NCBI RefSeq assembly: GCF_030068615.1
Contig: NZ_JASJOC010000017.1
Span: 1-64,000, forward strand
Origin: Halostagnicola sp. A-GB9-2
GTDB lineage: Archaea; Halobacteriota; Halobacteria; Halobacteriales; Natrialbaceae
DNA: 64,000 nt
Direction of reading: 5' to 3'
Numbering within the stretch: the first letter of the stretch is position 1; each line of letters begins with the position of its first letter. The notes below the pieces were generated by a model. That model ran no database searches and was not told where the DNA came from. It worked only from the letters and a program-made list of their open reading frames with translations. Below, one piece after another: positions 2,731-61,960 of this stretch. The position numbers and the translations under genes are program-made.

Positions 2731-3042
2731 TCACAGACCATCACGAATCGTTTCGGCGGGTTTCCTGTGTTGAATCGCTTCGATGAGCTCGGCATCGAAC
2801 TCCGTGGCTGCGTCTGCGAGGGATTCGAGAGTCTGTTTCCCTTCTGCACGTGGCTCCTCGACGACGTCCCAGTCCAAACTAGCTGGTTCGGCGCCAACGT
2901 CGAACCTGTCGAGTGGAACCGGTTCGGCCACCTACAAACCGTGGACGGTTGCGTCGTTTTGAGCTGTCAACTCGAGGCCGTCGTGAACCGCTGTCTTCGT
3001 CAAAGCACTGCCGTCAGCCGGTATCTGGATGGTGTCGTACAC
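2731..3042 (-). pseudogene. Universal stress protein, broken by amber stop
   Basis: From a GTG at 3042 the frame reads VYDTIQIPADGSALTKTAV, a clear Usp N-terminus (strand, then nucleotide-binding loop). After DATVHGL the codon at 2932-2934 is TAG. The same frame then continues with an acidic linker and FDAELIEAIQHRKPAETIRDG, the Usp middle section, and stops at 2731. The C-terminal GxxGRxG...GS motif that binds ATP is absent. A premature stop plus a lost C-terminus makes this a pseudogene. It faces the intact two-domain Usp at 3243. Confidence 0.75.
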
Positions 3043-6046: not shown

Positions 6047-6179
6047 CGTCGACGAACACCGGGGCCAGCGATCCGATGGTGATCCATAACCGATCGTTGA
6101 CCGAGATGCTACTAATAGCTGACTGGTTTACCTGCTTCGGGACTGCGGATTCATGTCGGCCGTGGTCGTAGCTGTCGCT

Positions 6180-7025
6180 ATGTACCGTACGATCCTCGTC
6201 CCTGTCGACGGTAGTCCCACCTCGAACGACGCGCTCGCGTGTGCCGTGTCGCTCTCACGAGCGACCGGGGCGACCATCCGGGCTGTGTTCGTCGTCGAAC
6301 CGATCGAGTACGACCTCGCGGCCAAAGACGCGTCGGCTCGAACGGCCGCCAGACAGCGCGGTCGTGAAACGCTGTCGTCGGTCGTCGGGTCAGTTACCGA
6401 CTCTGGCCTCACCGTCGACCGTGACGTCCGCGAGGGCGTGCCGTATCAGGAAATCGTCGCGCTCGCACGACGTGGAGCCGATCTAATCGTGCTGGGGACC
6501 CGCGGCTCGACGGCAGATACAGGGCTGGGGAGTACGATCCAGCGCGTGTTCACCACGGCGGAGACGCCGGTTCTCGCCGTGCCGCCGGACGCGTCCCTCC
6601 CCGATGACGGGCCGCGACGTGTCCTCATCGCGACCGACGGGAGCGAGATCGGGTCCCTGGCGGCTGATCATGCGCTCGAGCTCGCCGATCGCGTCGGGAG
6701 TGCGGTCGACGTCCTTCACGTGATCGACGAGACGAACCCCGCACTCGCTGACCCGTCCCAGCCGATCTCGGAACTTGCCAGAGAGGGCGGTCACGACGTC
6801 GTCGAATCGATCCGCGCCGCCGCCTCCGAGCGTGACCTCTCGGTCACGACGACCGTCATGCGGGGCGTTCCGGGGACTGCGATACGCTCACACGCGAGCA
6901 ACGCTGACGCCGACCTGATCGCCATGGGCACTCGCGGACACGCAACGCCGTCAGGCCAGTTACCCGGAGGAACGACCGCGCGAGTGTTGGGCCAGGCTGA
7001 TCGACCGATTCTGCTCTGTGGGTAG
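6180..7025 (+). CDS. Two-domain universal stress protein
   Basis: A 281-residue tandem Usp. The start at 6180 (MYRTILVPVDGS) is preferred to the upstream ATG at 6153, because nearly all Usp proteins begin one or two residues before the first beta strand. Domain 2 starts RRVLIATDGSEIGSLAADHA at about residue 145. The nucleotide-binding ends read GTRGSTADTGLGSTI and GTRGHATPSGQLPGGTT; the first keeps the expected spacing roughly, the second does not. Probably cytoplasmic and a dimer. It is divergent from the UbiB-like gene, and the 130-base gap between them holds both promoters. Confidence 0.85.
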   Translation: MYRTILVPVDGSPTSNDALACAVSLSRATGATIRAVFVVEPIEYDLAAKDASARTAARQRGRETLSSVVGSVTDSGLTVDRDVREGVPYQEIVALARRGADLIVLGTRGSTADTGLGSTIQRVFTTAETPVLAVPPDASLPDDGPRRVLIATDGSEIGSLAADHALELADRVGSAVDVLHVIDETNPALADPSQPISELAREGGHDVVESIRAAASERDLSVTTTVMRGVPGTAIRSHASNADADLIAMGTRGHATPSGQLPGGTTARVLGQADRPILLCG

Positions 7026-7106: not shown

Positions 7107-7298
7107 TCACCCGTCATCGGGATGTGCGACCTCGAGGTCAAAATCGGCTTCCGGGAAGGCGACGCAGGTCAACACCCATCCGTCCTCGATCTGCTCGTGA
7201 TGGGGACTGAGAGTAAATCGAACTTGGTGCGGTTCGTCGTCGGAAATGTTTCCCAGCGAGCCGTTCCGAACGCGGCTATGCCGGTGATGACCGCCCGA
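7107..7298 (-). pseudogene. C-terminal remnant of a plant-type 2Fe-2S ferredoxin
   Basis: A frame too short for an ordinary ORF reads NGSLGNISDDE..., then EQIEDGWVLTCVAFPEADFD and LEVAHPDDG, and stops at 7107. The block QIEDGWVLTCVAFPEAD is the hallmark end of a 2Fe-2S ferredoxin, including the last cluster cysteine. The region upstream that should carry the first three cysteines (CxxxxCxxC) reads SGGHHRHSRVRNGS and lacks them, and no start codon is in place. It is therefore a truncated or degenerate electron carrier. Confidence 0.65.
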
Positions 7299-8059: not shown

Positions 8060-8482
8060 ATGCACGTCCTCGTTCCGTTCGACGATAGCGATCCCGCGCG
8101 GGAAGCGCTAGAACATGCGGTGACAACGTATTCCGCTATAGATCTCACCGTACTTCACGTCGTGGAGCCGTCGATCGTGACCGACTGGAGGGACAATGCG
8201 AACGATTCCGATGCTTCGTTTCCCATCACTGCCGAGGACATGGCCGTCGAGTCGGTGTTCGAGTTCGTCTCGACAATTGCAGACGAACACGACATCACCA
8301 TCGCGACCGAAGTTCTCCTGGGCTCACCGTCGCGAGCTATCGTCCAATTTGCGGAGGGGAACGACGTCGACTGGATCGTCGTGGGATCACACGGTCGTAC
8401 CGGCGCGTCTCGCGTGTTGCTCGGAAGCGTGGCGGAACAGGTCGTCCGACGCGCGCCGGTTCCAGTAACGGTCGTTAGGTAA
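8060..8482 (+). CDS. Universal stress protein, single domain, ATP-type
   Basis: A 140-residue Usp starting MHVLVPFDDSDPAREALEHA. The C-terminal nucleotide motif is complete: GSHGRTGASRVLLGSVAEQV (G-x2-G-x9-GS), followed by RRAPVPVTVVR, the canonical last strand. It should bind ATP and work as a dimer in stress adaptation. The central region (EPSIVTDWRDNANDSDAS) is a flexible acidic loop typical of haloarchaeal members. It is monocistronic with its own strong TATA box. Confidence 0.9.
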   Translation: MHVLVPFDDSDPAREALEHAVTTYSAIDLTVLHVVEPSIVTDWRDNANDSDASFPITAEDMAVESVFEFVSTIADEHDITIATEVLLGSPSRAIVQFAEGNDVDWIVVGSHGRTGASRVLLGSVAEQVVRRAPVPVTVVR

Positions 8483-8755
8483 CGCGAAACGTGCAGTCGC
8501 GCTCGCTACCGTCGGGGCAAACAACTTACAATATAACTGTGGATGAATGTATAAGTCTCGCGATTCGGGAACCGTCGTTGCGAATGTACGTCGGTTACTC
8601 GGCATTGGTGTCGCCGAGAGTTGCGATGTTTCGAATTCGTTTACCGAGAGAACTTTCGGAAACTATCTCGAGTGAAGACCGATCTTCGGGAGGGAGGTCC
8701 ATCGGGGTATTGGACACTCGTCAGTGACGCTTCGGCTGCTTGAGAACGAAAATGA

Positions 8756-9178
8756 TCAGTACGGTGGCCGCTGTGCCTGCACGACTTCCGCGAGTTGCTG
8801 GTGTTCGTCGGCGAGCAGTTCGTTGAGGTCGTCGACCGTAATGATGCCGGACAGCTGACCGTCGCTGCCGACGGTCGGCAACCGCCGGACAGCGTGCTCG
8901 CTCATCAGTTCTGTTGCCCGGTAGAAACCGTCATCATGGTCGACTGTACACAGGTCTGTCGACATCACGTCCTCGGCGGTGATACCGTCGGGATGTTCGC
9001 CATCCCCGATTACCTGGAGTGTGAGATCGCGATCGGTGACGATCCCGACTGGCTTGCTGTCCTTACAGATGACGATGCTGCCGACGCTCTCGTCGGCCAT
9101 CGCCGTTGCGAGTTCTTGTACTTCAGTGTCAGTGGTTGCTGTTACGACATCGCTACGCGCGAGGTTCTCTATTGGCAT
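8756..9178 (-). CDS. Two-CBS-domain protein (Hrp1-like)
   Basis: A 140-residue protein made only of a CBS pair. CBS1 is at about residues 8-65 (ELATAMADESVGSIVICKDS...VGIVTDRDLT) and CBS2 at about 75-128 (ATELMSEHAVRRLPTVGSDG...GIITVDDLN). CBS pairs bind AMP, ATP or related adenosine ligands and act as energy sensors. Stand-alone pairs of this size are induced in bacterial hypoxia regulons, for example Hrp1 of Mycobacterium. Here it sits among Usp and PPOX genes, which fits the same role. The sequence shows no other domain, so a partner protein is expected but not identifiable. Confidence 0.88.
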   Translation of the reverse strand: MPIENLARSDVVTATTDTEVQELATAMADESVGSIVICKDSKPVGIVTDRDLTLQVIGDGEHPDGITAEDVMSTDLCTVDHDDGFYRATELMSEHAVRRLPTVGSDGQLSGIITVDDLNELLADEHQQLAEVVQAQRPPY

Positions 9179-9210
9179 GGTTCGTTTCCCCGTCCCACTG
9201 CCGTACGTAT

Positions 9211-9906
9211 AATACTGGGGATCGTATCGTGCTGACCGGCGACGATGTCGAACGCGACGACGACTGGTTGGCCATGATCAAACGACACGGCGAGAAGCAC
9301 GGGACGGTGACGGCGGTTCCGGTCTTCTACAGCGAGGACTACCCGGTCAAACTGCTCGAAGCCGCTCTGTATCGTCGTCGCCTCGCTCGTCGTCGATCGG
9401 ACGAATTGGGTGATCTGGGACGGCGATGTCACCTTCGATCGACGCGAGATCGACTGCGAGGGCTATATCGCTGATCTGCGCCGGACGGTCTCGGACGACG
9501 CCTTGCTTGCTGAGTACACCGACGAAGCCGTCGCCACGCGAACTCGTCAATCCTGTTCGTGTTCCTGGAAACCTCCGCATCACCTACGAACGTATCATGC
9601 GGTTCGCGTCAATCTTTTACCGATTTGCATCCCGTAAAACGCTCGCGATCCTCGGTCTCTTTTTGGCCACCGCAACGGTCGGCATCGTCGCACTGCTGCT
9701 GGTCGCCGGAGTCGTCACGTACCTCGCACGCGACCGCTACCACGCGCTCGGAGTCGACCGGCGGACGTGGCTATTCGCGGTTCCCTCACTCGTCCTCGCA
9801 CCCCTGTTCGGTCTTGCCGGCATCGTGCATCCGACGTTCGTCTGGGGCGGCCGGCGCCTACCATTGGAACGACACGTTCGACGTCACCGTCATCGAAAGC
9901 GAGTAG
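9211..9906 (+). pseudogene. Family 2-type membrane glycosyltransferase, frameshifted remnant
   Basis: Read across three frames, one protein emerges. The first part is GDRIVLTGDDVERDDDWLAM...VFYSEDYPVKLLEAAL. After a shift near 9366 it continues ASLVVDRTNWVIWDGDVTFD...EIDCEGYIADLRRTVSDDAL. After a second shift near 9530 it continues ELVNPVRVPGNLRITYERIM and a hydrophobic region (about 9640-9830). After a third shift near 9850 it ends YHWNDTFDVTVIESE, stop at 9906. The 'TGDDVERDD' block is the metal/sugar-nucleotide motif of GT2 enzymes, followed by C-terminal membrane helices. The first third of the catalytic domain is missing. Confidence 0.75.
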
Positions 9907-9934: not shown

Positions 9935-11152
9935 CTACTCCTCCAGGAGCCAGCCGAAGCGTTTCTCCCAGAACTCCTTTCCCGGCGGTTTCTTCGTGCG
10001 TCCGTCGGTCTTTGCCTCCCGAATCTGACGCTCGAGTACGTTTCGAGCGTCGTTGATCGCGTGCTTGGCTCCGTATCCCTCTCCGGAAGCGATGAACAGT
10101 CCGCGATCAGTGTACAGGCGAACGCGAGCGAGCAGTAACGACCGGCCGCGCCGCGTTTCGTCGTGCTCCTGCAAGTGGATCTTCGCGTCGAGGATGTTCA
10201 TGCCGTGATCACGATCGTCGAACTTCTCGATCATCTCGACGATATCGTCGTACGAGAAGTCATCGATTAAGCTGGCCCCGTAAAGTTGCACGCCGCGATT
10301 GCCACCGGCCTCCCAGGTAAGCGAATCGAGGACGTCGGTTTTCGTCACGATCCCGTGGGGCGAACCGTCGTCGGTCACGACGAGCGACGAAGCGTCGATA
10401 TCGAACATCTTCTCGACGGTCGTTTCGAGCGTTTCGGACGGTGCAACGGTCCGAACTGGCGACGTCATGACGTCTCGAACCGGGAGATCGAGCATGCGTT
10501 CGCGTTCGCCTTCCCGTGCGCCGAATCCGCCGCGACGCGCGCGGGCCGTGCTCGAGGAAATTTCACCGCCGAAGGGGTCCACCCCGCCGGCGTCGCCGCC
10601 CTGGCTCTGAACCTCGGCCCGGACCGTCAGGTCGGTGACGTCGTAGAGGCTCAGGATGCCAACCGCCGTCCCATCCTCGACGATAGGGAGGTGTGTAATT
10701 CGGTGCTCCCGGAACGTATTCAGTGCCTCGCCGAGACCCGATTCGGGGGTCAGCGAGAGCAGGTCAGTCGAGGCGGCCTCCGAAACCGTCGCCGCGCCGA
10801 GGTTCGGTTTCACCGCCTCGAGGATGCTGTCGACAGTGACGACACCACACAACTCGCCGTCCTCAAAGACTGGCAATACCTGTGAATCGCTGTCAATCAT
10901 CAACTGTGCGACTTTCCGAACGTCTTCGTCGGGCGCCAGCTGGGGAACGTGCCAGACCAGCGAGCCGAGTTTCTCGTTCGGTTGGCGGTGCGACGTAGCC
11001 AGTTGCCGCCGGGTGACGACGCCCTCGAACTCGTCGCCGCGAACGACGACGCCTCTCACGTCGGAATCTGCGAACGTCCCGACGAGTTTCGAGACGGTTG
11101 TGTCGGGCGTGTACTCAACGAACTCCTCCGAAACGATGGTGTCGATGTTCAT
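9935..11152 (-). CDS. Four-CBS-domain protein with HPF/S30AE-like C-terminus
   Basis: A 405-residue soluble protein. Four CBS motifs are visible (about residues 10-55, 70-125, 130-185 and 220-275), with cores such as VVTVDSILEAV, VGILSLYDVTDLTV and HGIVTKTDVLDSLT. A glycine-rich linker lies between CBS3 and CBS4. The last 120 residues are different: MIEKFDDRDHGMNILDAKIH, then a strand LLLARVRLYTDRGLFIASGE, then GYGAKHAINDARNVLERQI. The order and the final 'AINDARNVLERQI' match ribosome-hibernation (HPF/RaiA) domains, which end in A-I-D..DKLERQL. CBS domains bind adenosine nucleotides, so the protein may link energy state to ribosome inactivation. CBS assignment is firm; the hibernation role is inference. 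Confidence 0.85.
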   Translation of the reverse strand: MNIDTIVSEEFVEYTPDTTVSKLVGTFADSDVRGVVVRGDEFEGVVTRRQLATSHRQPNEKLGSLVWHVPQLAPDEDVRKVAQLMIDSDSQVLPVFEDGELCGVVTVDSILEAVKPNLGAATVSEAASTDLLSLTPESGLGEALNTFREHRITHLPIVEDGTAVGILSLYDVTDLTVRAEVQSQGGDAGGVDPFGGEISSSTARARRGGFGAREGERERMLDLPVRDVMTSPVRTVAPSETLETTVEKMFDIDASSLVVTDDGSPHGIVTKTDVLDSLTWEAGGNRGVQLYGASLIDDFSYDDIVEMIEKFDDRDHGMNILDAKIHLQEHDETRRGRSLLLARVRLYTDRGLFIASGEGYGAKHAINDARNVLERQIREAKTDGRTKKPPGKEFWEKRFGWLLEE

Positions 11153-11294
11153 GGTGATTACGTGTATGGATCGGTTGTCTGACTGTACAGCAACAGGAGA
11201 TCAGTCGTACGCGATAGTTTGACAGCCAATGTCAAATACCCGGTGGTCGTTCCCACGTTTCAGGTATTTGCGTTCGATCGTAGGACGAGTATAT

Positions 11295-11718: not shown

Positions 11719-12240
11719 ATGAACTTCGACGAGTTCACCGGCGAGATACAGCATCGACTCGAGCTCCCGGACACTGGCCGGACGGTCCGGACGATCCGGG
11801 CTATACTCATGACGGTCGGCGAACGGATTCCTGAGGGTGCGGCCGCGGACCTCGCGGCGTCGCTGCCGATGGAAATTAAGTGGTACCTGACCGGCGCGGT
11901 CCAAGACCACGGCCAGCGGTTCGACTGGCAGGAGTTCGTCTCGCGGGTCAACGATCGCGAGGGTGATCGGACCGATCGCTCGGAGGCCGCTTACCACGCC
12001 CGGGTCATCGTCGACTTCGTGGCGTCGCAGGTGCCACCGTCGGATTTCCAACAGCTTCGAGATCAATTACCCGAGAGCGCGGACGACGGGAACTGGGGAG
12101 AACTGTTCGCGGTGGTCGATAGCGGCGGCTGGGGCGACGCCCAGGAAGCCCAGACCGGCGGTGGGCCACAACACGAGTCCGAAGCCGGCCCCGATTCCGG
12201 ATCGAACGGCGTCGAACCGGTCGACGAGACCGAAGAGTGA
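11719..12240 (+). CDS. DUF2267 protein
   Basis: A 173-residue protein. The DUF2267 domain fills residues 1-130: MNFDEFTGEIQHRLELPDTG, AILMTVGERIPEGAAADLAA, LPMEIKWYLTG and FDWQEFVSRV are its usual blocks, forming an all-helical fold with two similar halves. The last 40 residues (GGWGDAQEAQTGGGPQHESE onward) are a disordered acidic tail. DUF2267 proteins have no known reaction; they recur next to Usp, CBS and PEP synthase genes in stress clusters. A second, shorter copy lies at 17813. Confidence 0.88.
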   Translation: MNFDEFTGEIQHRLELPDTGRTVRTIRAILMTVGERIPEGAAADLAASLPMEIKWYLTGAVQDHGQRFDWQEFVSRVNDREGDRTDRSEAAYHARVIVDFVASQVPPSDFQQLRDQLPESADDGNWGELFAVVDSGGWGDAQEAQTGGGPQHESEAGPDSGSNGVEPVDETEE

Positions 12241-12259: not shown

Positions 12260-12600
12260 CTACCGACTGTCGCTTTCTGTCTCCGAGAGGCGGCGCCCGA
12301 TCGCATCGGCGCTGACGAGCGCATCACGAACGTTGTCGGGCGACACCGGGAACGGTTCGTTGTGGATCGTCTCCTCGTCGGCACAGGCTGCGTCCGCGAC
12401 GACTTCGAGTTCCTCGCTCGACGGGTCATCGAGTCCGATTTCGGCTAGCGTGGTCGGCATCCCGACCGAGGACGCGAAGCCTGCCACATCCTCGACGAAC
12501 GCATCGTCGTGGCCCTCGAGGACGAGTTGCGCGATCGTGCCGATCGTCACTTTCTCGCCGTGGGTCGCATCGTGGGTCGCCTCGAGTCGATGTCGACGCC
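12260..12600 (-). pseudogene. Glycerol dehydrogenase C-terminal remnant
   Basis: The frame reads THDATHGEKVTIGTIAQLVL, then FVEDVAGFASSVGMPTTLAE, then VADAACADEETIHNEPFPVS and ends ...SADAIGRRLSE. THGEKV is the metal-binding histidine segment of iron-containing alcohol/glycerol dehydrogenases, and 'ETIHNEPFPV' is typical of glycerol dehydrogenase ends. Only about the last 115 of about 360 residues remain; upstream the reading breaks into another frame near 12600. It once reduced NAD with glycerol or a related polyol. Confidence 0.75.
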
Positions 12601-12757
12601 GCACTCGAGTAGCACGAATTCCGTCGCGATCTATAGTAGCCACTGAAAGTCAGTTCATACCCAATCACACAGCTGTCGTGCGATTGCTGTGTGAACAGTT
12701 TCAGTTGTTACTATTGCCCGAAGGCTCTCGAACGGGTCTCGCCGACCCGGTAGGAGG

Positions 12758-15628
12758 TTAGTACCGGTCGAAGTACCTGTCCTGAACCTTCACGAAGACG
12801 GCCATCAACAGGGCAAAGACTGCGGCTGCGATCGCGATCTGGGCCCAATGGACGAGTTCGAGCGGTTCGACGTCGAACAGCAGTTGCCCGGTCGGCGTGT
12901 AGAGGACGAGCAACTGCAACGTTACGGCGACGGCGACCGCGAGCACGAGCCAATTGTTCGAGAAGAGTCCGAGCCCGTACCGGTACCGAATCGCCTGAAT
13001 TCGGACGATCTCGAAGACGACGAATCCGGTAAAGACCACCGTCTGAGCAAGTCCGCGCCCCACTTCGTAGTCTGGACTCCAGCCGACCAGTGCGGCGGTC
13101 ACATCGTATCCAGGGACTAGTTCACCGTAGAAGTTGAGGGTAAACAGCGGCAACAGACAGACTGTCATAAAGAGCGCGATGCCGACGATAGACGTGATGA
13201 TCCGGTCGGTGATGACGCCTTCGTCGGGCGGGCGTGGCTCTCGGTCCATCACGTCGTCTGCGGCCGGATCGACGCCCATCGTCAGCGCGGGAATGCCATC
13301 GGTGACGACGTTGATCCAGAGCACTTGGATCGGCGTAATCACGAGTCCCAGGCCCGCCAGCGTCCCAGTGAAGATCATCGTCACCTCCCCGCCATTACCT
13401 GACAACAGATAGTTGACGAACTTGCGAACGTTGTCGAAGATGCGCCGGCCGCCCCTAACCGCGTCCCGAATCGTCGCGAAGTTGTCGTCCAGCAGGACGA
13501 TGTCGGAGGCTTGTTCCGTGACGTCCGTCCCGCGAACCCCCATAGCGACACCAACGTCTGCGTTTTTGACTGCTGGCGCGTCGTTGACGCCGTCTCCCGT
13601 CATCGCCACCGTGTGCCCTTTCTGCTGGAGTGTCTGGAGAATACGCGTCTTGTGTTCCGGCGACGTCCGCGCGAAGATATCGACGTCGTCGACCACCTCC
13701 CGCAACGTCTCGTCTCCCATCTCCTCGAGTTCGGGTCCCGTAATCACTGTTGCCGAGCGGAGTCCGACCTCCTCACCGACTGCCCGCGCAGTGATTGCGT
13801 TGTCGCCTGTGATCATCACGACGTTGATCCCAGCGTCGAGACAGCCCGCAAGCGCGTCCGTCACCTCGGGTCGAGGCGGATCGATCATTCCCTGCAACCC
13901 AAGAAAGACCATCTCTTGCTCGACGTCCTCATCTGGCTCCTGCGCCTGCGAATCAGGAACGTCGGGTCGGTACGCAAACCCCATCACGCGCAACGCGTCC
14001 GCCGCGAACCCCTCATTTTGGGTCTCGATCTCCGTGTGCCGTTCATCCGTGAGAGAGACGGTCTCGCCGTCGACGAGTTCCCGATTACAGTGATTGAGGA
14101 CGGTCTCTGGTGCGCCTTTCATGTAGGCGACCGTCCCGCTGTCAGGCGTCTCGTGGACGGTCGTCATTCGTTTGCGAGCCGAAGTAAACTCGACCTCCCC
14201 GATTCGGGGGTACCTCCCAGTCAGATCTCGGTGATCGAACCCAGCTTTCTGGGCGGCGACGAACAGTGCGATTTCGGTTGGATCGCCGAGGTAGGTACGC
14301 TCTTGGTCGGCGGACTCGTCTGTCGTAGGCCCGTCGCGTTCACGGATGCCGATGTCGACGTTGTTACAGAGCATCCCACAGTGCAGTACCTTGGCGACCC
14401 TGTCGGTGTCGACTGGCTCGTCGTCCTGTAGAAACTCCCCGTCGGTGTCGTAGCCGGTCCCGGTCACTGTGTATGTTTCACGGTTGGCGACGATCCGCTG
14501 GACGGTCATCTCCTCCTCGGTGAGTGTACCGGTCTTGTCCGTACAGATTACGTCGACCGAGCCAAGCGCCTCGACGATCGGAAGCCTGCGAACGAGAGCA
14601 TTCTGGTCGGCCATCCGGCGCGCCCCGAGCGCGAGCGAGAGCGTGACGACCGCCGGAAGCCCCTCAGGGACCGCCGAAACCGCGATGCCGACCGCCGTCA
14701 GGAAGACCTGCAGCGGCGGTGTGTCGCCGATTACCAGCTCGGTGATCGCGATGATCGAGACGATGCCGATGACTCCGAGCGCGATGAATTTGCCCAACCG
14801 GTCCATCTCCGCCTGGAACGGCGTGTCGCGCTCTTCGGCTTCCTCGAGGGCCGTCGCGATCTGTCCGATTTCGGACTCGGGGCCGGTCTCGACGACAACC
14901 GCCATCCCGGAGCCGCGCTCGACGACGGTATCCTTGTACAGCATATTCTCGCGCTCGGCCAGTGAGGTGTCCTCGTCGACCCGACCGACTGCCTTCGAGA
15001 CGCCGACGCTCTCGCCGGTCAGGGCCGCCTCGTCGACGCTCAGGTTCGACTCGTCGACGATCCGGGCGTCGGCGGGGACGATGTCGCCGGACTCGACGAA
15101 TATAACGTCGCCGGGCACAACGTTCGTCGCGTCGATTTCGGTCTTCTCGCCGCTGCGTCTGACCAGCGCGTAGGTCGTCGACATCTCCTTTAGCGCCTGA
15201 ATGCTCTGTTCGGCACGATAGTCCTGCAAGAAGCCGAAGGCGGTGATGAACAGGACGACACCCGCAATGACCCCAGCATCGATCACGTGGCCAACCGCTG
15301 CCATCACCGCCGCGGCGACGATCAACACCCAGATTAGCGCTGGCTTGAACTGCTCGACGAAGATTTGAAGTGGCGAAATTCCCTCCTCGGCTTCGATCTT
15401 GTTGGCCCCCTCGTACTCGAGACGCTCGCGTGCTTCAGCCAGATCTAGTCCTTCAGCCGAAGTCTCGAGACCGTCGTAGATCTCCTCGATCGGTCGCGAG
15501 TGCCAGTTCGTCGTGGCGCCAGGGTCGGCTCCCGTTCGCGCTCGATCTCGGTGTTGATTCTGCTCTGAGCGTGACACGTGTACAATTTCGATCCGAATTA
15601 GTTCGTAGTCGCTTCTCGCGTTCGTCAC
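12758..15628 (-). CDS. P2-type cation-transporting ATPase
   Basis: A 956-residue P-type ATPase. In order: N-terminal cation ATPase domain ([20 protein letters not shown]), actuator loop with the TGES motif in [14 protein letters not shown], membrane segment with [20 protein letters not shown] (the P2-type PEGLP calcium-site helix), phosphorylation motif DKTGTLT, nucleotide-site AYMKGAPE, and hinge [20 protein letters not shown], then six C-terminal helices. It hydrolyses ATP to move a cation across the membrane; PEGLP and overall length point to Ca2+ or Na+/K+ rather than copper. A GTG at 15577 (VSRSEQNQH) is an alternative start that removes 17 residues. Similar ATPases occur in hypoxia-induced gene sets in bacteria. 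Confidence 0.92.
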
Positions 15629-16094: not shown

Positions 16095-16500
16095 ATGTAT
16101 CTGTTCGAAGCCCTGGAATATGGCCACGATATCCTTACTGACGCAACAGCTATCGCGGTAGATTACGATCGTGAGACAAATACCAAAATCATCACTGAAC
16201 ACCCCACCACGAAATCGTCAGACAGGCCAAAGAGGCGACCGACGACACGATCGTCATCGGCAGTCACGTTCGAGAGGAAATTGCATCGACGTACGAAACG
16301 CACGATGTCGAGGTGACCAGTGCCGTTCAGCGCGGTCATCCAGCTCATGGCATCGTCGCGTATGCCGAGGACAACGATATCATCATCGGACGAACGGGCC
16401 GAACGGGTGTGATGCGGGTGATGTGAAGTACGGCTGATCGGGTCGTCCGATCGACTTCGATACCAGTCATCGTCATTCCGGAACCAAGCGATGACAGCTA
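16095..16500 (+). pseudogene. Universal stress protein remnant, two C-halves fused
   Basis: The first frame gives DATAIAVDYDRETNTKIITE. After a shift near 16205 a second frame reads HHEIVRQAKEATDDTIVIGS, then HVREEIAST, then a second Usp-like stretch, HDVEVTSAVQRGHPAHGIVA, YAEDNDIIIIGRTGRTGVM, a TGA near 16424, and finally ADRVVRSTSIPVIVIPEPSD. Two Usp C-terminal halves are joined with the intervening N-terminal half missing, and frameshifts and a stop interrupt them. This is a decayed two-domain Usp just upstream of the intact Usp at 16586. Confidence 0.7.
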
Positions 16501-16585
16501 ACGGCGAACCCGCAGTGTAGTCTGTCGTTCGAATGCATCTCACCGGTGGATGGCTTTACGAGCGTTCGTGGCGAATACCGAAACG

Positions 16586-17017
16586 ATGTCACGATCGATC
16601 CTCGTTCCACACGACGGCTCGTCGAACGCGCAGGCTGCGTTCAAGTATGCTCTCGATACTTTTCCGAACGCCCAGATCATTCTCTTTCACGCGATCGATC
16701 CGTTCGAGGTGACGCCTGCTGACGAGCAGTTACCGGCGTTGACCGACGAATGGCTAGACGACCAGCGTTCGCGAGCGGCGCAACTCTTCGAGGACGCGCG
16801 GGGGGACCTCGGAGACGAGTACGAGACGGTCGACGTCGAGACCGAGACGGGAATTGGCTCACCAGCCCAGACTATCGTCGCCGCCGTCGACGGCACTGAC
16901 GCGGATCAGATCGTGATGGGAAGCAAAGGGCGGAGCGGCGCACCCGGGGCGCGAATGGGGAGTACGGCCGAACTCGTCGTCAAGCGCGTGGATGTTCCGG
17001 TAACGATCGTGCGCTAA
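16586..17017 (+). CDS. Universal stress protein, single domain
   Basis: A 143-residue Usp from the ATG at 16586 (MSRSILVPHDGSSNAQAAFK); the longer start at 16550 adds 12 residues before the first strand and is not needed. The nucleotide motif reads GSKGRSGAPGARMGSTAEL, keeping G-x2-G-x9-GS. The end VKRVDVPVTIVR is canonical. A long acidic helix (EWLDDQRSRAAQLFEDARGD) links strands 2 and 3. Convergent with another Usp only 21 bases away at 17039. Confidence 0.88.
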   Translation: MSRSILVPHDGSSNAQAAFKYALDTFPNAQIILFHAIDPFEVTPADEQLPALTDEWLDDQRSRAAQLFEDARGDLGDEYETVDVETETGIGSPAQTIVAAVDGTDADQIVMGSKGRSGAPGARMGSTAELVVKRVDVPVTIVR

Positions 17018-17038: not shown

Positions 17039-17497
17039 TCACACGTCCTCAGCACGAACGACAGTAACTGCAACTGGTGATCTCCGGACGACAATCTCGG
17101 CGACGCTTCCGAGAAGCAATCTCGTCGTCCCCGTTCGGCCGTGACTCCCCATGATAATCTGATCGACGTCGTTCTTCTCGGCGTACTCGACAATTTCACG
17201 CGACGGGTCCCCAGTAACACCGTCAGTCTCGAAATCCCCGTCGTAGTCCGTTGCTACCTCGCGGGCTGTATCGAAAATCTGTTCTTCTTCTTCGTTCGCT
17301 CGTTCGTACCACTCTTCGGAGCCGTGAATCGGTTCGTTTCGCATGTCGACCTCGGTTGCGGAACTGTATCCTGGATCAGACGGATCGAGGATGTGAAGTG
17401 CGACGATAGAGGCGGCGTCGTACTCGTCACATGCGAACTCGAGCGCCTGAATCGACAACGGCGAACCATCGATGGGAACGAGAAGGTTGCGAGCCAT
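17039..17497 (-). CDS. Universal stress protein, single domain, ATP-type
   Basis: A 152-residue Usp starting MARNLLVPIDGSPLSIQALE. The complete ATP motif GSHGRTGTTRLLLGSVAEIV is followed by RRSPVAVTVVRAEDV. An acidic insertion (NEPIHGSEEWYERANEEEEQ) precedes the third strand. It should bind ATP and dimerise. Its closest visible relative in the window is the Usp at 8060. It is transcribed against the Usp at 16586, so the two genes share one terminator region of 21 bases. Confidence 0.9.
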   Translation of the reverse strand: MARNLLVPIDGSPLSIQALEFACDEYDAASIVALHILDPSDPGYSSATEVDMRNEPIHGSEEWYERANEEEEQIFDTAREVATDYDGDFETDGVTGDPSREIVEYAEKNDVDQIIMGSHGRTGTTRLLLGSVAEIVVRRSPVAVTVVRAEDV

Positions 17498-17812
17498 CGC
17501 TTACTCGTATTGCTTCCAGTGATAAAATGCTATCTGGAGGGGGGAGTCTCCGAGCGAACGCTCGTCGGTGGTATCGGCTGCTTGGAAAACGATTCGCACG
17601 ATTGGGAGCAATTGCGCCAGACAGACGTCGACGTCATACAAATCGACGCTCGACGATCCGTTCGTTTCTTAGCGTATCGGTGCGTTCGGGATTTATGTCT
17701 CTTCGTGACCGACTTGAGAACGAATCGCATTCGAGTAGAGAGACTGGGTATCGAATTCACTGGTATCGGTACCGTCACGCCAGTCAATCTTGTGACCACA
17801 CATCCACAGACG
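17498..17812. other. Intergenic promoter region between Usp and DUF2267 genes
   Basis: About 315 bases separating divergent genes. It must carry both promoters; no protein-like frame or strong repeat was found. Confidence 0.4.
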
Positions 17813-18202
17813 ATGAATTACAAAGAATTTTCCGGGCAGGTTCAGCACAGACTAGAATACGCCCACTTCGGACAGGCAGTCCAAGCGACTCGAGCCGTGT
17901 TGACAACCCTCGGCGAACGGCTGTACGAAGGAAAGGCAATGGATCTCGCGAGTCCGCTGCCGATGGAAATCGATTGGTATCTGACCGAAGCCGAACACGG
18001 GCAGCGCTTCGACTATCAGGAGTTTCTCGATCGCGTCGCAAACCGCACGAATGTCGATCGATCCGATGCCAACTATCACGCCCAACAGAGAGTCCCAATC
18101 GTCGCCGAGATCGTTCCGGCGGACAACATCGAGAAAGCCGATGGACAACTCCCTGACGATTATGATCGGCTGTTCGAGCTAATCGACAAAACCGAGACGT
18201 GA
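17813..18202 (+). CDS. DUF2267 protein, short form
   Basis: A 129-residue DUF2267 protein. It matches the 11719 gene block by block: MNYKEFSGQVQHRLEYAHFG, RAVLTTLGERLYEGKAMDLA, LPMEIDWYLTEAEHGQRFDY and QEFLDRVANRT. It lacks the acidic tail. The start at 17813 is set by this alignment; the longer frame upstream is not protein-like. The gene ends in a four-base overlap (GTGA) with the methyltransferase gene, so the two are translationally coupled and may act together. Confidence 0.85.
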   Translation: MNYKEFSGQVQHRLEYAHFGQAVQATRAVLTTLGERLYEGKAMDLASPLPMEIDWYLTEAEHGQRFDYQEFLDRVANRTNVDRSDANYHAQQRVPIVAEIVPADNIEKADGQLPDDYDRLFELIDKTET

Positions 18203-21085: not shown

Positions 21086-22483
21086 TCAGCTCTCGCTCTC
21101 GTTCTCGCGCCCCTTCGCGACCGCGAGCTCGAGAAGGAAACTCGACGATGAGACAATGTCGCCGATCCCAACCGTCCCTACAGGATCCTCGACGACTCGA
21201 TTAGGACAGGCGGCGACCGTTGGAGTGTAGAGGACGCCGTCATCGGCCGTCTCGTCAAGGTGGTCCGCGAGGAGTTCGATCGCCACCCGACCCTTCGCTG
21301 ACGGTTCGTACTCCAGGCCAGTCTCGAGATCGCCGGGAGACGTAATGTCACCCAACGCGGCCTTCGTCGCGGCGTTGACGGCGGCAAACTCTAGCCCGCG
21401 CTCGACCGCCTCGGAAGGAAGATACGAGTCCATCACGGAGAGGTGATACTCCATCGCATGGAGTCGGAGACAGTCGACGCCGAGTTCGGCCCGGATCGCG
21501 TCGAGCATGCGGTAGTGAGTGAGGATTTCGTCGGACTCGAACGGGGTGTCTTCCGTCGGTTCCTTGTCGACGACCTCGAGGTCAGCGTCGTCGTAGAGGA
21601 GATTGAGTTCGTGCGTGTCCGCACCGATGACGTTCGCTTCCGGGAGGATCCACTTGTAGATGCTCTCACGGAGGTCGGCATCGTGTGTCACGGCGTACTC
21701 AATGTGGACTTTCAAATCGTCCTCGCTCCCCGATCGGAGTCTCCGAATGACCTCTCGGGCGTGACGGTGTGCCTGTTCGTAGCCCTCTTCGACGTGGTCG
21801 GGCGTAAGGTTGTGGTAACCGGCCAGCAACGCCCCGTCGACGACGTCGCCGACCTGATCGACATGCGTGTCGAGGTCGCCGGCGACGAGGTCGAACTCCG
21901 GGGGCCTCGAGGCAGCGATGAACCGGGTATCTTCGATCGCCGTGACGTCAAAGAGCTCGTCGCCGGTCCTGAACTCGAACACCCAGTTGATTTTCGTTCG
22001 GTCCGTGTTGACGGCCTCCTGAATCGGTACGGAGTCCACCTCACCGTCCTCGACCATCGGGTACGCCACTGCGTCGGGATGATCGAACATCGTGAGTTGC
22101 CTGTCTGAAAGCAGGTACGTGTACGTGACCGGCGACGCTCCCAGCGAGGAGACGAGATTGGTCATGATCCCCGTCTGGCCGCCCATCTGCTGGTTGTCGG
22201 GTTCGAATTCTGCTTCAAGGATGGCCGCGAATTCGTCCGTCATCGCGACTTCGTCGCCTCGTCCAGCCGCCATCGTGTGCGTGATCGCCGTCGCAAGGTC
22301 CCGTTTCGACGCCAGTGGACTCGACGGGTGGCGTTCGCCGGGTTCTGGCGGTCGCTCGAGGAACGCCTCCACGTCCTCGTCGACCCGGACGATTGCGTCG
22401 ACGTTAGCGTTGTACGCGACGAACACCGGCAGACCGTCTAGCGCTCGGATATCGGACTCTAGCTGGGCGTGATCGTCCACCAT
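21086..22483 (-). CDS. ADP-dependent glucokinase/phosphofructokinase
   Basis: A 465-residue member of the ADP-dependent sugar kinase family (ribokinase-like fold). The start at 22483 (MVDDHAQLESDIRALDGLPV) is preferred over a longer basic frame. Visible signatures: FVAYNANVDAIVRVDEDVEA at the sugar site, NQQMGGQTGIMTNLVSSLGA, LAGYHNLT, ANVIGADTHELNLL (NxxE-type Mg site) and the catalytic GIGDIVSSSSF near the C-terminus, where the aspartate is the general base. It phosphorylates glucose or fructose 6-phosphate with ADP; sequence alone does not decide which. Most haloarchaea lack this step and use a modified Entner-Doudoroff route, so its presence is notable. Confidence 0.87.
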   Translation of the reverse strand: MVDDHAQLESDIRALDGLPVFVAYNANVDAIVRVDEDVEAFLERPPEPGERHPSSPLASKRDLATAITHTMAAGRGDEVAMTDEFAAILEAEFEPDNQQMGGQTGIMTNLVSSLGASPVTYTYLLSDRQLTMFDHPDAVAYPMVEDGEVDSVPIQEAVNTDRTKINWVFEFRTGDELFDVTAIEDTRFIAASRPPEFDLVAGDLDTHVDQVGDVVDGALLAGYHNLTPDHVEEGYEQAHRHAREVIRRLRSGSEDDLKVHIEYAVTHDADLRESIYKWILPEANVIGADTHELNLLYDDADLEVVDKEPTEDTPFESDEILTHYRMLDAIRAELGVDCLRLHAMEYHLSVMDSYLPSEAVERGLEFAAVNAATKAALGDITSPGDLETGLEYEPSAKGRVAIELLADHLDETADDGVLYTPTVAACPNRVVEDPVGTVGIGDIVSSSSFLLELAVAKGRENESES

Positions 22484-22712
22484 GATATGGGGTGCTCCCA
22501 GTCCCAGAGAATTAATGCTATCTTCTATAAAATCGTTTGTGGTGGGTCGGTCGCAAGATCGGATCCCGGTCCGTCGTTCCGGAGTCGAGTGCACTCAGGG
22601 GGAGCGTCGGAGATAAACCGTCGGCGCGGCTAGCGCTCGCCCGTTGCTACGCGGACCCCAGTTTCGCCCCCCTGCAACTTATTTTCGTCCGCGTGGTCAG
22701 CACGGCAGAGCG

Positions 22713-24989
22713 ATGGGAGGAGAGACATTCATCAGGCAGTTAGTGGACGTGAGTAGCGAGGACACGGGGGCCGTCGGCGGAAAGAGCGCGAACCTCGGCG
22801 AACTCGCTGGCCTCGACGTGCCCGTGTTACCGGGATTCACGACGACGGCCGGCGCGTACGACTACTACGTCGAACGGACGGGCATCCGCGAGGAGATCGA
22901 GTCGGAACTCGCCGGGGTAGACCCCGAAAACGTCGCCGACCTACAGCAGCGCGGCGAGCGGGTGCGAGCCCTGATTTCGGATGCGGAGATGCCAGCGGAA
23001 CTTGAATCTGCGATCGTCGATCAGTACGAGGAACTGGCAGACCGGATCGAGATCGACGAGCCGGACGTCGCCGTCAGGAGTTCCGCGACTGCCGAGGATC
23101 TGCCGGACGCCTCCTTCGCGGGGCAACAGGAGACGTTCCTGAACGTTTCGGGGACGACGGAACTGCTCGAATCGATCAAACACTGCTTCGCATCGCTGTT
23201 TACCGATCGGGCGATCGTCTACCGCGAGAACAACGACTTCGATCACCTCGACGTGAAACTCGCCTGTACCGTCCAGAAAATGGGGCGGGCCGATCTGGCG
23301 TCCTCGGGGGTGTTGTTCACCCTCGATCCCGACACCGGCTTCGACGAGGTCGTCGTCATCGAAGCGGCCTACGGGTTCGGCGAGCCGGTCGTCCAGGGCG
23401 TAGTCGATCCCGACAGATACGTCGTCTTCAAGCCGACTACCGGCATCGTCGAGAAGCAACTCGGCGGGAAGACCCAGCGCATGGTGCGGCGCAACGGCGG
23501 CACGAAGCTCGAGTCGGTCCCGGACGACGAACAGGATGAGTTCGCCCTTTCGGACGGCCGAATCCGAGAGCTCACGACGTACGCAACTCGCATCGAAGAG
23601 CATTTCGACGCCCCGCAGGACATCGAGTGGCTCATCGATGGACAGCTCGATGAACTGTTCGTTGTCCAGGCCCGGCCAGAGACGGTCCACGGGGCAACCG
23701 AGGGGAACGTCCTCCGAACGTACAGTCTCGAGGAAACCGACGAGGAGATCTTCGACGGGATCGCGATCGGCAACGCCGTGGCGAGTGGCCCTGTCCGCGT
23801 CCTTGAAGACCACCGCGAGATGGACCGCGTCGAGGACGGCGATGTCCTCGTCACGGAGATGACCGACCCGGACTGGGTCCCCGTGATGAAGAAGGCGAGC
23901 GCCATCGTGACCGATCGGGGCGGGAAGACGTCCCATGCGGCGATCGTCTCGCGCGAACTCGGCGTCCCCGCGATCGTTCGGACCGGCGACGCGACCGAGA
24001 CGCTGATGAACGGCGACCCCGTGACGGTCGACTGTTCGACCGATGTCGGCCGGGTCTACGAGGGCGAACTCGAGTACGACGTCCGTGAGGAGGTGGTGGA
24101 CGACCTCCCCGAGACCGACACCGAAGTCAAACTGATCCTCGGCGACCCTGCGCGAGCGTTCGCACTCTCGAACCTCCCCGTCGACGGCGTGGGATTGGCA
24201 CGCGAGGAGTTCATCGTGACGTCCTACGTCGGCTATCACCCGCTGGAACTACTCGAGCGCGGCGAGGAGGAACGCTTCGTCGACGCGTTACGAACCGGCA
24301 TCGCAAAGATCGGCGCCGCGTTCTATCCCGACGACGTCATCTTTCGGCTTAGCGACTTCAAGACCGACGAGTACCGCAACCTCGAGGGCGGCTGGAAGTA
24401 CGAACCTGACGAGGACAACCCGATGATCGGCTGGCGGGGCGCCTCCCGGTACTACGACGAGGACTTCCGCGAGGCGTTCCGACTCGAGTGTGAGGCGCTG
24501 TGCCAGGTTCGCGAGGATGTTGGGCTGGACAACGTCACCGTGATGGTGCCGTTCTGTCGCACGCCCGAGGAGGGCGAACGCGTCCTCGAGTTGCTGGACG
24601 AGTACGGCCTTTCGCCGGACGAGATGGACGTATACGTGATGGCTGAACTGCCGTCGAACATCGTCCTCGCGGATCGGTTCTCGGCGCTGTTCGACGGCTT
24701 TTCCATCGGGTCGAACGACCTCACACAGCTAACGCTTGGCGTCGACCGGAACTCTGAGCAACTCGCACCCTTGTTCGACGAGACTGATGAGTCGGTCACG
24801 CGATCGATTTCCTCACTAATTGAGGAGGCCCACCGACACGACCAGCCGGTCGGGATCTGTGGCGACGCGCCGTCGACGATACCCGAATACGTCGAGTTCC
24901 TGCTCGATACGGATATCGATTCGATCTCGGTGTCGCCGGACGTCGCGGTCGAGACGTTGCTTACTGTCGCCGAACTCGAGGACGCGTGA
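22713..24989 (+). CDS. ppsA: Phosphoenolpyruvate synthase
   Basis: A 758-residue PEP synthase. The start at 22713 (MGGETFIRQLVDVSSEDTGA) fits the family. The N-terminal ATP-binding domain has VRSSATAEDLPDASFAGQQE and AYGFGEPVVQGVVDPDRYVV. The swivelling domain carries the phosphorylated histidine in GGKTSHAAIVSRELGVPAIV. The C-terminal PEP-binding barrel has IGSNDLTQLTLGVDRNS and GICGDAPS with the catalytic cysteine. It makes PEP from pyruvate and ATP for gluconeogenesis. It diverges from the ADP-dependent sugar kinase across 230 bases, so one regulator could switch direction of carbon flow. Confidence 0.95.
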   Translation: MGGETFIRQLVDVSSEDTGAVGGKSANLGELAGLDVPVLPGFTTTAGAYDYYVERTGIREEIESELAGVDPENVADLQQRGERVRALISDAEMPAELESAIVDQYEELADRIEIDEPDVAVRSSATAEDLPDASFAGQQETFLNVSGTTELLESIKHCFASLFTDRAIVYRENNDFDHLDVKLACTVQKMGRADLASSGVLFTLDPDTGFDEVVVIEAAYGFGEPVVQGVVDPDRYVVFKPTTGIVEKQLGGKTQRMVRRNGGTKLESVPDDEQDEFALSDGRIRELTTYATRIEEHFDAPQDIEWLIDGQLDELFVVQARPETVHGATEGNVLRTYSLEETDEEIFDGIAIGNAVASGPVRVLEDHREMDRVEDGDVLVTEMTDPDWVPVMKKASAIVTDRGGKTSHAAIVSRELGVPAIVRTGDATETLMNGDPVTVDCSTDVGRVYEGELEYDVREEVVDDLPETDTEVKLILGDPARAFALSNLPVDGVGLAREEFIVTSYVGYHPLELLERGEEERFVDALRTGIAKIGAAFYPDDVIFRLSDFKTDEYRNLEGGWKYEPDEDNPMIGWRGASRYYDEDFREAFRLECEALCQVREDVGLDNVTVMVPFCRTPEEGERVLELLDEYGLSPDEMDVYVMAELPSNIVLADRFSALFDGFSIGSNDLTQLTLGVDRNSEQLAPLFDETDESVTRSISSLIEEAHRHDQPVGICGDAPSTIPEYVEFLLDTDIDSISVSPDVAVETLLTVAELEDA

Positions 24990-28446: not shown

Positions 28447-29700
28447 TCACCGGTTGCGATTCAGTTCGTCGGCGATCACATCGAGCAACTCCTCGAGCTG
28501 GCGAGGTAACAGGAACCGCTCTCGAACGCGCTCGCGTGCGTTATCGCCGAATCGCGTTCGACAATCATCGTCTTCGAGAAGGTCGCGGACGCGGTCGCCA
28601 GCGCCTACCGCGTCGTCCGGATCGACGAGATAACCGGTCTTTCCGTCCTCGATCTGTAGCGGGATACCGCCGACGTTCGACCCGACAACCGGCGTGCGCT
28701 TCCAGAGGGCCTCGGCGACGACCAGCCCGAACCCTTCTCGAAGCGACTTCTGGACGATGACGTCCGAATCACGCTGCAGAACGTTCACCGTCGTATCGGG
28801 TTGATCGGTCAGCACGTGGACGTTCGGATCGTCGACTGCCTCCTCGGCGACCTGTTCGTACAACTCCAGTCCCTCCGGATCGTCGCCGGCCATCCCGCCG
28901 ACCAGCGCCAGTTGGAGCTCCGGAACGTCCTCGCTGGCTCGACGGTATGCCTCAAGCGTGCCGAACTGATCCTTCCATGGATCGAACCGGGAAATCTGCG
29001 TGACGAGCGGATCCTCGAACGAAAGGGGGTCCAGCCGATCGTGCTCGTCAGTGACCGTCTCCGGGCCGAGCAAGCGGTTTTTCTTCGTTATGGGATCGAT
29101 TGAGGGGTAGATGATACTCGCTTCCGGCACTTCGAGATCGCCGACGTAGGCGGACCGGCTGAAAATCGCGTGGTCGACCCGACTCGCGTATTCGGAGACG
29201 AACGCGAGGTACTCGTCGATCGGGTCGGTGAGGTCGATGTGACAGCGCCAAACGATCGGGATATTCGGCATCGTTTCCGCCATGTGATCGAGCATCCCGA
29301 GCGGCTGTGGATCGTGGATCACGACGAGGTCGTACTCGCTCTCGTGACCCTCGAGTTCGAGGGCGTTTCGCTCGGTAACCGTCCGATAGGTCGCTTGCAT
29401 GTCGTCAGTCAGCGACGGCCCATCCCCCTGAAGCGCATTGTGCATCGCCTTGGTCACCTCGAAGAACTCGTCAGTGGCGTCCATGACGAGCCAGTCAGTG
29501 TCGATCTCGAGGTCGTTACAGACCGGAACGATCGAGCGGAGGAGTTCAGCGACGCCGCCGCCGGTCGCCGTCGAATTGACGTGCAGGATTCGAACGTCAT
29601 CTAGATCGTCGGCGAGCGACTGGAGCCGATTGAGGCGATCCTGACCCGTCACATCCGTGTACGCGTCGATCGTTCGATCCGTGAGTGATGGCGTGTGCAT
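28447..29700 (-). CDS. treT: TreT-type trehalose glycosyltransferring synthase (GT4)
   Basis: A 417-residue GT-B glycosyltransferase. The start at 29700 (MHTPSLTDRTIDAYTDVTGQ) matches the family; the longer frame is not protein-like. N-terminal signature: VRILHVNSTATGGGVAELLR and DATDEFFEVTKAMHNALQGD, both very characteristic of TreT. The donor-site motif is SLREGFGLVVAEALWKRTPV. The enzyme joins NDP-glucose and glucose into trehalose, a compatible solute, and the reaction is reversible. With the adjacent nucleotidyltransferase and the ADP-dependent sugar kinase it forms a glucose/trehalose loop. Confidence 0.88.
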   Translation of the reverse strand: MHTPSLTDRTIDAYTDVTGQDRLNRLQSLADDLDDVRILHVNSTATGGGVAELLRSIVPVCNDLEIDTDWLVMDATDEFFEVTKAMHNALQGDGPSLTDDMQATYRTVTERNALELEGHESEYDLVVIHDPQPLGMLDHMAETMPNIPIVWRCHIDLTDPIDEYLAFVSEYASRVDHAIFSRSAYVGDLEVPEASIIYPSIDPITKKNRLLGPETVTDEHDRLDPLSFEDPLVTQISRFDPWKDQFGTLEAYRRASEDVPELQLALVGGMAGDDPEGLELYEQVAEEAVDDPNVHVLTDQPDTTVNVLQRDSDVIVQKSLREGFGLVVAEALWKRTPVVGSNVGGIPLQIEDGKTGYLVDPDDAVGAGDRVRDLLEDDDCRTRFGDNARERVRERFLLPRQLEELLDVIADELNRNR

Positions 29701-30289
29701 CGTCCTACCCGTCGTACAACGACTGACGGTATCAGTTGTGGGGGCAGCACCGTTTGACATCGACGGACGAACAGACATCTTCGTCACTGGCTAAGATGCC
29801 AGTGGAGTCGACATCCGAACGTACACCACGAGTGCAAAGGGTGATCTACCACTCGAAAGGATACCGCTGGTCGGCCGATCAATAGGAGACAGCGTCCTCC
29901 GAGAGACACGCCGCCCTCGGGCCCCTCACTGGAGTAAGCAAGGGGATTACGACTGTTTCATTCGATATTTCGGGGAATATCCTGGCATATGACGAGCCAG
30001 TAATAGTAATATTACGGGAGTACATATGTAATATATGGGGTATCACACTTCGTCTGAAAAATACTATTACTTGCTGAGATCGTATCATAGAACTAATCTA
30101 ACGGTGTGGAAAGAAGGGCCGGCAGTGAGTTTTCGAGTGCTAAAAACCATCTACCCAACACTTGCCTTTTCCGTAACGAATCAGAGAGTAAAGCAAGATT
30201 CTCCCTTGCTGGACCGCCTCAAGTACAGGGTCGGCAGATTCTCACGGTGAGGGGATGATATCAATATACAGGACAATAGGCAGGATACG
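29701..30289. other. Long AT-rich intergenic region
   Basis: About 590 bases upstream of treT and downstream of pgk. From 29960 to 30200 it is clearly more AT-rich than the genes (for example TAATAGTAATATTACGGGAG). A 71-residue frame at 30035 is aromatic and basic, unlike haloarchaeal proteins, and is not accepted. This may be imported or regulatory DNA. Confidence 0.45.
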
Positions 30290-31504: not shown

Positions 31505-31552
31505 GGGCAAGCGTATCGAACAGTCGTCGAATCGGTACTGGAGCGGTTCACG

Positions 31553-32623: not shown

Positions 32624-32848
32624 AGTCGTGTGGGCCACTGCCTGCAGTATATTTGTTTGCCCTGTCCAGTAACCCATCGTGAATATCATCGACGAGACGC
32701 CTTTGGGACGGTCGCTTGACAGCTTCGACTGATCATCGATACGGTCGTTCCCGATGAAGAGGTCGAGTAGTACTCGAGGACAGGACGATATCGCCGATTC
32801 CGGCCCGTGTATCGGCTCCGATTTTCGGAAACACCGTCGTAACTTCGG

Positions 32849-36270: not shown

Positions 36271-36408
36271 GCCGATCGCCGACTCGGCGAGGGTCGATCC
36301 ATCGTGATCGGCAGCCACGGTCGCTCGGGACCGTTACGTGTGTTGCTCGGAAGTGTCGCCGAACGGGTCGCTCGACGCGCACCCGTTCCGGTGCCGATTG
36401 TTCGATAA
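36271..36408 (+). pseudogene. Universal stress protein C-terminal remnant
   Basis: The last 35 residues read SIVIGSHGRSGPLRVLLGSV, AERVARRAPVPVPIVR, an excellent Usp end with the full ATP motif. Upstream, the frame is not Usp-like and has no start. Bases 35859-36270 hold no other gene I can support; TELEVAEYTLELVGS at about 36107-36150 looks protein-like but is unrecognised. Confidence 0.7.
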
Positions 36409-61807: not shown

Positions 61808-61960
61808 CGTATGGCCCTCGAGAACGCCGACATCGCCGTCGACCACGTCGTCCTCGCCGCGCACGGGCGACCCGACGAGCGACGGCCGCTGTACGGCAGC
61901 GTCTCGGAGACGGTCATACGGCGCGTGCCGGTGCCGGTGGCAGTGACAGTCGTTCGGTGA
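61808..61960 (+). pseudogene. Universal stress protein C-terminal remnant
   Basis: Reads LENADIAVDHVVLAAHGRPD, ERRPLYGSVSETVIRRVPVP, VAVTVVR and stops at 61960. It keeps a weakened ATP motif (AHGRPDERRPLYGSV). The N-terminal 90 residues are absent; the frame upstream is unrelated. Confidence 0.7.

Follow-up and report, generated by a model that had tools for sequence, protein, structure and literature searches.

A probable accessory paralogue of the HibA ribosome hibernation factors among universal stress genes of Halostagnicola sp. A-GB9-2

A four-CBS protein in a stress-gene neighbourhood

The window, which is the whole 64,000-nucleotide stretch of Halostagnicola sp. A-GB9-2 DNA analysed here, carries at positions 9935-11152 a minus-strand open reading frame of 405 amino acids plus stop, whose product we call HibA-2 (Table 1). 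The coordinates originally predicted for a protein with four CBS motifs proved exact, and Pfam recognises four CBS stretches in it (E 1.4e-37, 128 bits). Judged by conservation, this is not a chance reading frame, because more than 50 haloarchaeal genome records hold full-length orthologues with identities of 62-89%, a figure drawn from two lists that have some genomes in common. Both C-terminal peptides quoted in the original prediction are present, LLLARVRLYTDRGLFIASGE beginning at residue 339 and HAINDARNVLERQI at residue 364. The latter had been taken for the end of the protein, which it is not: 28 more residues (REAKTDGRTKKPPGKEFWEKRFGWLLEE) come after it, and these are conserved in the HibA-2 clade, while the core HibA proteins described below carry a different tail in their place.

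Table 1. Positions of the accessory HibA gene, its parts and its neighbours in the window
Feature	Position	Strand	Basis or remark
Accessory HibA paralogue (HibA-2), CDS	9935..11152	-	ORF, Pfam, PDB matches, tree
CBS module, four CBS domains, residues 1-278	10319..11152	-	Pfam, predicted structure, column counts
Enlarged CBS3-CBS4 loop, residues 179-220	10493..10618	-	aligns to PTC loop of P. abyssi HibA
GGFGAREG motif in loop, residues 208-215	10508..10531	-	motif counts
HPF/RaiA (S30AE)-fold domain, residues 284-383	10004..10303	-	predicted fold, profile
C-terminal tail, residues 384-405, end WEKRFGWLLEE	9938..10003	-	alignment, counts
Putative promoter element GGGAACGACCACCGGGTATTTG (consensus GgGAAcgaCCanCGagTAcTTG)	11233..11254	-	80 bp upstream of HibA-2 start codon
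Tandem universal stress protein	6153..7025	+	neighbour
Universal stress protein	8060..8482	+	neighbour
Stand-alone two-CBS protein	8756..9178	-	neighbour
DUF2267 protein	11719..12240	+	neighbour, divergent to HibA-2
P-type cation-transporting ATPase	12758..15628	-	neighbour
Universal stress protein	16550..17017	+	neighbour
Second DUF2267 protein	17141-18202		after the universal stress protein at 16550..17017
Usp fragment	2746-3039	-	short or stop-containing
Usp fragment	7188-7295	+	short or stop-containing
Usp fragment	16298-16480	+	short or stop-containing
Usp fragment	36298-36405	+	short or stop-containing
Usp fragment	61823-61945	+	short or stop-containing

The setting had been described as rich in universal stress protein (Usp) genes, and the counts bear this out, since the genome has 87 Usp-domain matches and 12 of them lie in the window's first 28.4 kb, where 0.53 would be expected. 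From the Usp fragments scattered in the window, the region seems both to gain and to lose Usp copies. Another apparent relic is a minus-strand frame of 127 amino acids (12260-12643) whose likeness to Fe-dependent alcohol/glycerol dehydrogenases is confined to their C-terminal part; it is probably a remnant, because in N. magadii an annotated glycerol dehydrogenase gene lies near HibA-2.

Farther into the window (21086-22594, 22644-24989, 28447-29787 and 30290-33712), an ADP-dependent glucokinase/phosphofructokinase family gene adjoins a gene of the PPDK/PEP-synthase type, followed by TreT-like, PGK, GAPDH and FBPase genes. Both ADP-dependent kinases and PEP synthase produce AMP, which might supply a CBS sensor. 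In mycobacteria, the DosR dormancy set contains Usp, a two-CBS protein, a P-type ATPase and an HPF-like factor. We considered this suggestive parallel for the HibA-2 neighbourhood and set it aside as an idea only, as the likeness extends no further than the kinds of gene and no sign of joint regulation emerged.

Family membership and the fold of the C-terminal domain

To which family does this protein belong? In a phmmer search of the PDB it matched chain 9l96_a over its full length (E 8e-191), and the second match was 9sr9_H; with a 46-sequence profile the two chains gave E values of 1.9e-196 and 2.6e-68, the alignment to 9sr9_H covering profile positions 2-389. Chain H of 9sr9 is labelled 'Dehydrogenase' in the PDB; we take it to be the HibA of P. 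abyssi, given that its length of 392 residues and its domain plan fit the account in PMC13324472. That paper, published in April 2026 in Nat Commun, presents HibA as a four-CBS module fused to an HPF/RaiA domain and found in 47% of archaeal genomes. Its main text places the C-terminal domain in the mRNA/tRNA channel of the 30S subunit and the CBS module at three positions on the 50S subunit, in one of them with the loop of residues 190-207 around the PTC. It also reports that P. abyssi HibA binds ribosomes and inhibits translation in vitro, and that T. barophilus without HibA recovers more slowly and has smaller 70S pools (PMC13324472).

The C-terminal domain had been predicted to be ribosome-hibernation-like, with structure prediction as the proposed check. 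At the sequence level, S30AE (PF02482) matches residues 306-382 at 15.9 bits, below the Pfam cut-off of 23.7, because the likeness to HPF/YfiA is weak: 30 of 46 relatives match this model with E values no higher than 1 (best E 5.5e-4), and a profile of the domain reaches, beyond the two HibAs, B. subtilis HPF and bacterial YfiA at E values of 0.06-0.45. The full-length predicted model was moderate (pLDDT 75, pTM 0.64; residues 177-217 below pLDDT 50). A fold search with the whole protein returned CBS-module proteins only, among the best of them 9znf, 9zng and 9e7f, and the C-terminal domain was therefore folded separately. Modelled alone, it came out with an S30AE-type topology (E5-8 H18-31 E37-51 E54-65 E68-77 H79-100). 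The top Foldseek matches in the PDB were chloroplast HPF, T. thermophilus YfiA and the mycobacterial, S. aureus and E. coli hibernation factors, and the best 21 were all of the HPF/YfiA type. A fold unrelated to S30AE, which would have spoken against the prediction, did not appear. The domain contains invariant columns. HibA is described with two archaeal-specific insertions in its HPF domain, and the part of our protein that would hold them can be aligned with P. abyssi HibA.

We conclude that the protein is very probably (probability about 0.87) a HibA-family ribosome hibernation factor, and an accessory paralogue standing beside a core HibA. The original reading of an archaeal hibernation factor is supported by the protein's near-full-length alignment with P. 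abyssi HibA, a ribosome hibernation factor by experiment (PMC13324472), and by an orthologue that shares PDB entries with large-subunit proteins. The hibernation role, the family and the fold are already published, and the structure of this orthologue, from Haloferax mediterranei, is already deposited. A gene usually annotated merely as 'CBS domain-containing protein' now finds its place in the HibA family.

Core and accessory HibA proteins in haloarchaea

At least one HibA match was found in 144 of 145 sampled genomes of the class, and about 25 of the 145 carry a full-length copy at least 62% identical to HibA-2 of the window. The Halostagnicola genome itself also encodes a core HibA (C12:181854-182954), which is about 35-41% identical to the HibA-2 copy, depending on the segment. 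In the tree, the core clade (26 rows, support 98) is separate from a HibA-2 clade of 58 rows (support 100) that includes both the window protein and 9l96, and two more accessory clades comprise 14 and 5 rows (support 100 each), which gives the haloarchaea several separate clades of HibA. HibA-2 is patchy even inside the genus (1 of 3 sampled congeners). Accessory copies are also often plasmid-borne: 42 PLSDB records match the HibA family, haloarchaeal by all names listed, and 11 of these, not counting the record of the 9l96 protein itself, show 60-80% identity to that protein. H. mediterranei has a second plasmid-borne HibA (NZ_CP039142.1, 105963-107162, on a plasmid of 131,975 bp) that is 47% identical to the 9l96 protein. 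With HibA-2 on pHME505 and this more distant copy, a cultured species makes the roles of the paralogues testable.

Several individual loci deserve mention. Core HibA and HibA-2 adjoin on the same strand in a Natronomonas locus (8169-9311 and 9356-10576 of L047) and lie 5 kb apart, again on the same strand, in L056 (2623-3762 and 9139-10353), which may reflect an ancestral tandem arrangement. In one genome (G129) the HibA-2 copy (9140-10369 of L061) is the sole HibA match and its upstream region is without the conserved element described below (2.4 bits), as if HibA-2 were in the role of core HibA. The HibA-2 match is fragmented in L082 (8994-9872), and in L149 and L151 it has internal stops or frame breaks; these are apparent pseudogenes or sequencing frameshifts.

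The genomic surroundings of the two kinds of gene differ. Within 6 kb, a Usp gene is found at 36 of 56 HibA-2 loci and 3 of 24 core loci (p 2e-5), a DUF2267 gene at 22 of 56 and 0 of 24 (p 9e-5) and a P-type ATPase gene at 12 of 56 and 0 of 24 (p 0.014), these p-values being optimistic because related loci are not independent and a few species are in both locus sets. Universal stress proteins are encoded next to HibA-2 in the annotated plasmid loci of H. mediterranei and N. magadii. An all-against-all clustering of neighbouring ORFs served as a pointer only, since shadow ORFs of these G+C-rich genomes dominated it. The accessory clade of five rows (L083, L084, L085, L088) lies in an even denser neighbourhood of Usp, UbiB and P-type ATPase genes.

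HibA-2 also differs from core HibA within the protein. The span from D171 to M229 has a median of 59 residues in the HibA-2 clade, against 34 in core haloarchaeal and P. abyssi HibA, and the CBS3-CBS4 loop is about 24 residues longer than that of P. abyssi. By alignment, this extra stretch is the PTC loop of HibA. It is rich in Gly, Ser and Arg and usually closes with GGFGAREG, a motif present in 42 of 56 HibA-2 proteins, in 9 of 14 and 4 of 5 members of the other two accessory clades and in none of the 26 core proteins. Near the C-terminal end, (F/Y)GW occurs in 55 of 56 HibA-2 proteins and in 0 of 26 core proteins.

A third difference lies upstream of the gene. We searched the upstream regions of 53 HibA-2 genes, 250 bp each, for motifs and obtained the consensus GgGAAcgaCCanCGagTAcTTG, which is found in most of them. 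It is shared by Natrialbaceae, Haloferacaceae and Natronomonadaceae, and the distance from its start to the start codon is usually 100-110 bp; about one third of the HibA-2 genes have no clear match. The motif reached a log-likelihood of 380, compared with 117-125 for shuffled sequences. The copy in the window, GGGAACGACCACCGGGTATTTG, scores 30.9 bits and is the only match above 12 bits there, and in a scan of 2.2 Mb of loci the element was essentially confined to HibA-2 genes. Its strength at these genes is partly by construction, because the motif was trained on them, but its absence elsewhere is not. We considered a regulon that the neighbours would share through this element and found no support for it, as the Usp, CBS, DUF2267 and ATPase genes are unmarked both in the window and in the 2.2-Mb scan. 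Being so nearly confined, the element looks like a putative dedicated promoter element of HibA-2 and offers a handle on its regulator.

The main text of the HibA paper (PMC13324472) contains no discussion of multiple haloarchaeal paralogues. The expansion with accessory loop, tail, promoter element and stress or plasmid setting is likewise undescribed there and in passages of PMC12607858.

Ribosome hibernation, free large subunits and related systems

The chain in 9l96 is 100% identical to the pHME505-encoded H. mediterranei protein WP_004060604 (tblastn), and this orthologue is a chain in 9l96, 9l98, 9l9c and 9l9v. A haloarchaeal uL2 query found one chain sequence common to 9l94, 9l95, 9l96, 9l98, 9l9c, 9l9j, 9l9k and 9l9v. 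An aIF6 query matched 9l9c, 9l9j and 9l9v, which places aIF6 in two of the four entries with the orthologue (9l9c and 9l9v). The presence of 30S was judged by two proteins, uS7 and uS12; queries with the Halostagnicola genome's own sequences found no 9l9x chain in the PDB, though any chain from a haloarchaeon would be expected to score above the archaeal chains that were listed. For a third protein, the Pfam S4 model had no match in the genome. The orthologue entries may be free 50S particles or masked maps, and they give no direct view of 70S hibernation in the HibA-2 clade. We sought a paper describing 9l96, 9l98, 9l9c and 9l9v and found none in the literature searched.

These entries lend weight to the most serious alternative, in which HibA-2 acts mainly on the free large subunit, as a factor for 50S storage, anti-association or late assembly together with aIF6, and not in 70S hibernation. 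Further, according to the main text of PMC13324472, P. abyssi HibA did not yield complexes with 50S subunits, while the PTC-facing loop of HibA-2 is much longer. However, the HPF/RaiA domain, which is known to bind at a site on the 30S subunit, is fully conserved and would be needless in a pure 50S factor, and the entries may simply reflect a 50S sample or a masked map; we regard this alternative as unlikely, at roughly one chance in four by our own estimate.

The original prediction had also called the protein adenylate-sensing, which finds partial backing. The ligand-type aspartates D171 of CBS3 and D273 of CBS4 are invariant in all clades, as is T270, which agrees with the adenylate site reported where CBS3 and CBS4 meet in P. 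abyssi HibA, a protein that binds AMP (PMC13324472). HibA-2 probably binds adenylate between CBS3 and CBS4. Control of its ribosome binding by adenylate is hypothetical, and AMP or ATP had no clear effect on the ribosome binding of P. abyssi HibA according to the same source. If the protein had retained an HPF-like domain but served mainly as an adenylate-responsive regulator, for example binding a partner when AMP rises, the invariant aspartates would be accounted for; in addition, a purified variant of the Pat2 acetyltransferase brought along H. volcanii HVO_2384, a CBS protein that has a hibernation-factor domain (PMC12607858), and P. abyssi HibA was found with DNA-replication proteins (PMC13324472). 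We consider this improbable as the main job, given the conserved HPF domain and the PDB entries shared with ribosomal proteins, and a second role of this kind would be compatible with both. Least credible of all is a redundant or decaying extra copy that is carried on a mobile stress island and does little itself: HibA-2 is patchy within the genus, plasmid-borne in many species and apparently broken in three loci, but the window copy is intact, as are most relatives, the plasmid-encoded protein of H. mediterranei was abundant enough on 50S particles for modelling, and conservation of loop, tail and upstream element across families points to selection.

Returning to HibA-2 as an accessory hibernation factor, we propose that it would silence and shield idle ribosomes, with its HPF domain in the 30S channel and its CBS disk, together with the long loop, on the 50S subunit. 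Its own promoter element might switch it on under some stress, and the longer loop may let it hold free 50S better than core HibA, possibly with aIF6, as loop length and the deposited 50S entries suggest. More tentatively, and with the odds somewhat against it, haloarchaeal hibernation may be two-tiered, a housekeeping HibA being joined by paralogues on stress islands and plasmids whose GGFGAREG loop and tail make them 50S-binding and aIF6-compatible and which a promoter element of their own switches on. If true, hibernation capacity would be horizontally acquired and specialised by subunit.

How does HibA-2 compare with known systems? Among its closest known counterparts is H. mediterranei WP_004060604, itself annotated 'CBS domain-containing protein', which belongs to the same clade, aligns over the full length with the window protein and shares its Usp neighbours, GGFGAREG loop and WEKRFGW tail; its gene lies on a 505-kb plasmid and its chain is in deposited entries with 50S proteins. 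Core haloarchaeal HibA has the same domain plan, with the short loop of 34 residues and a different tail, and is near-universal in the class, rarely near Usp genes and without the upstream element. The HibAs of P. abyssi (Q9UYR4 / PDB 9sr9) and T. barophilus have the same four CBS plus HPF/RaiA plan. The P. abyssi protein, at about 29% identity, shares with HibA-2 the full-length alignment, the CBS3/CBS4 ligand aspartates and the CBS3-CBS4 loop, the D171-M229 region being 34 residues long there and 59 in HibA-2; HibA-2 has in addition a conserved C-terminal tail and is accessory, patchy and often plasmid-borne beside a core gene. Dri and the M. acetivorans proteins SriA-D resemble HibA-2 in that their CBS modules bind archaeal ribosomes, but they are without an HPF/RaiA domain, and Dri has two CBS modules where HibA-2 has one four-CBS module plus HPF. 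Bacterial HPF/RaiA/YfiA proteins, finally, have the same fold as the C-terminal domain of HibA-2, with marginal sequence similarity and without a CBS module, and where bacterial long HPF continues into a C-terminal dimerisation domain, HibA-2 has a tail of 22 residues instead.
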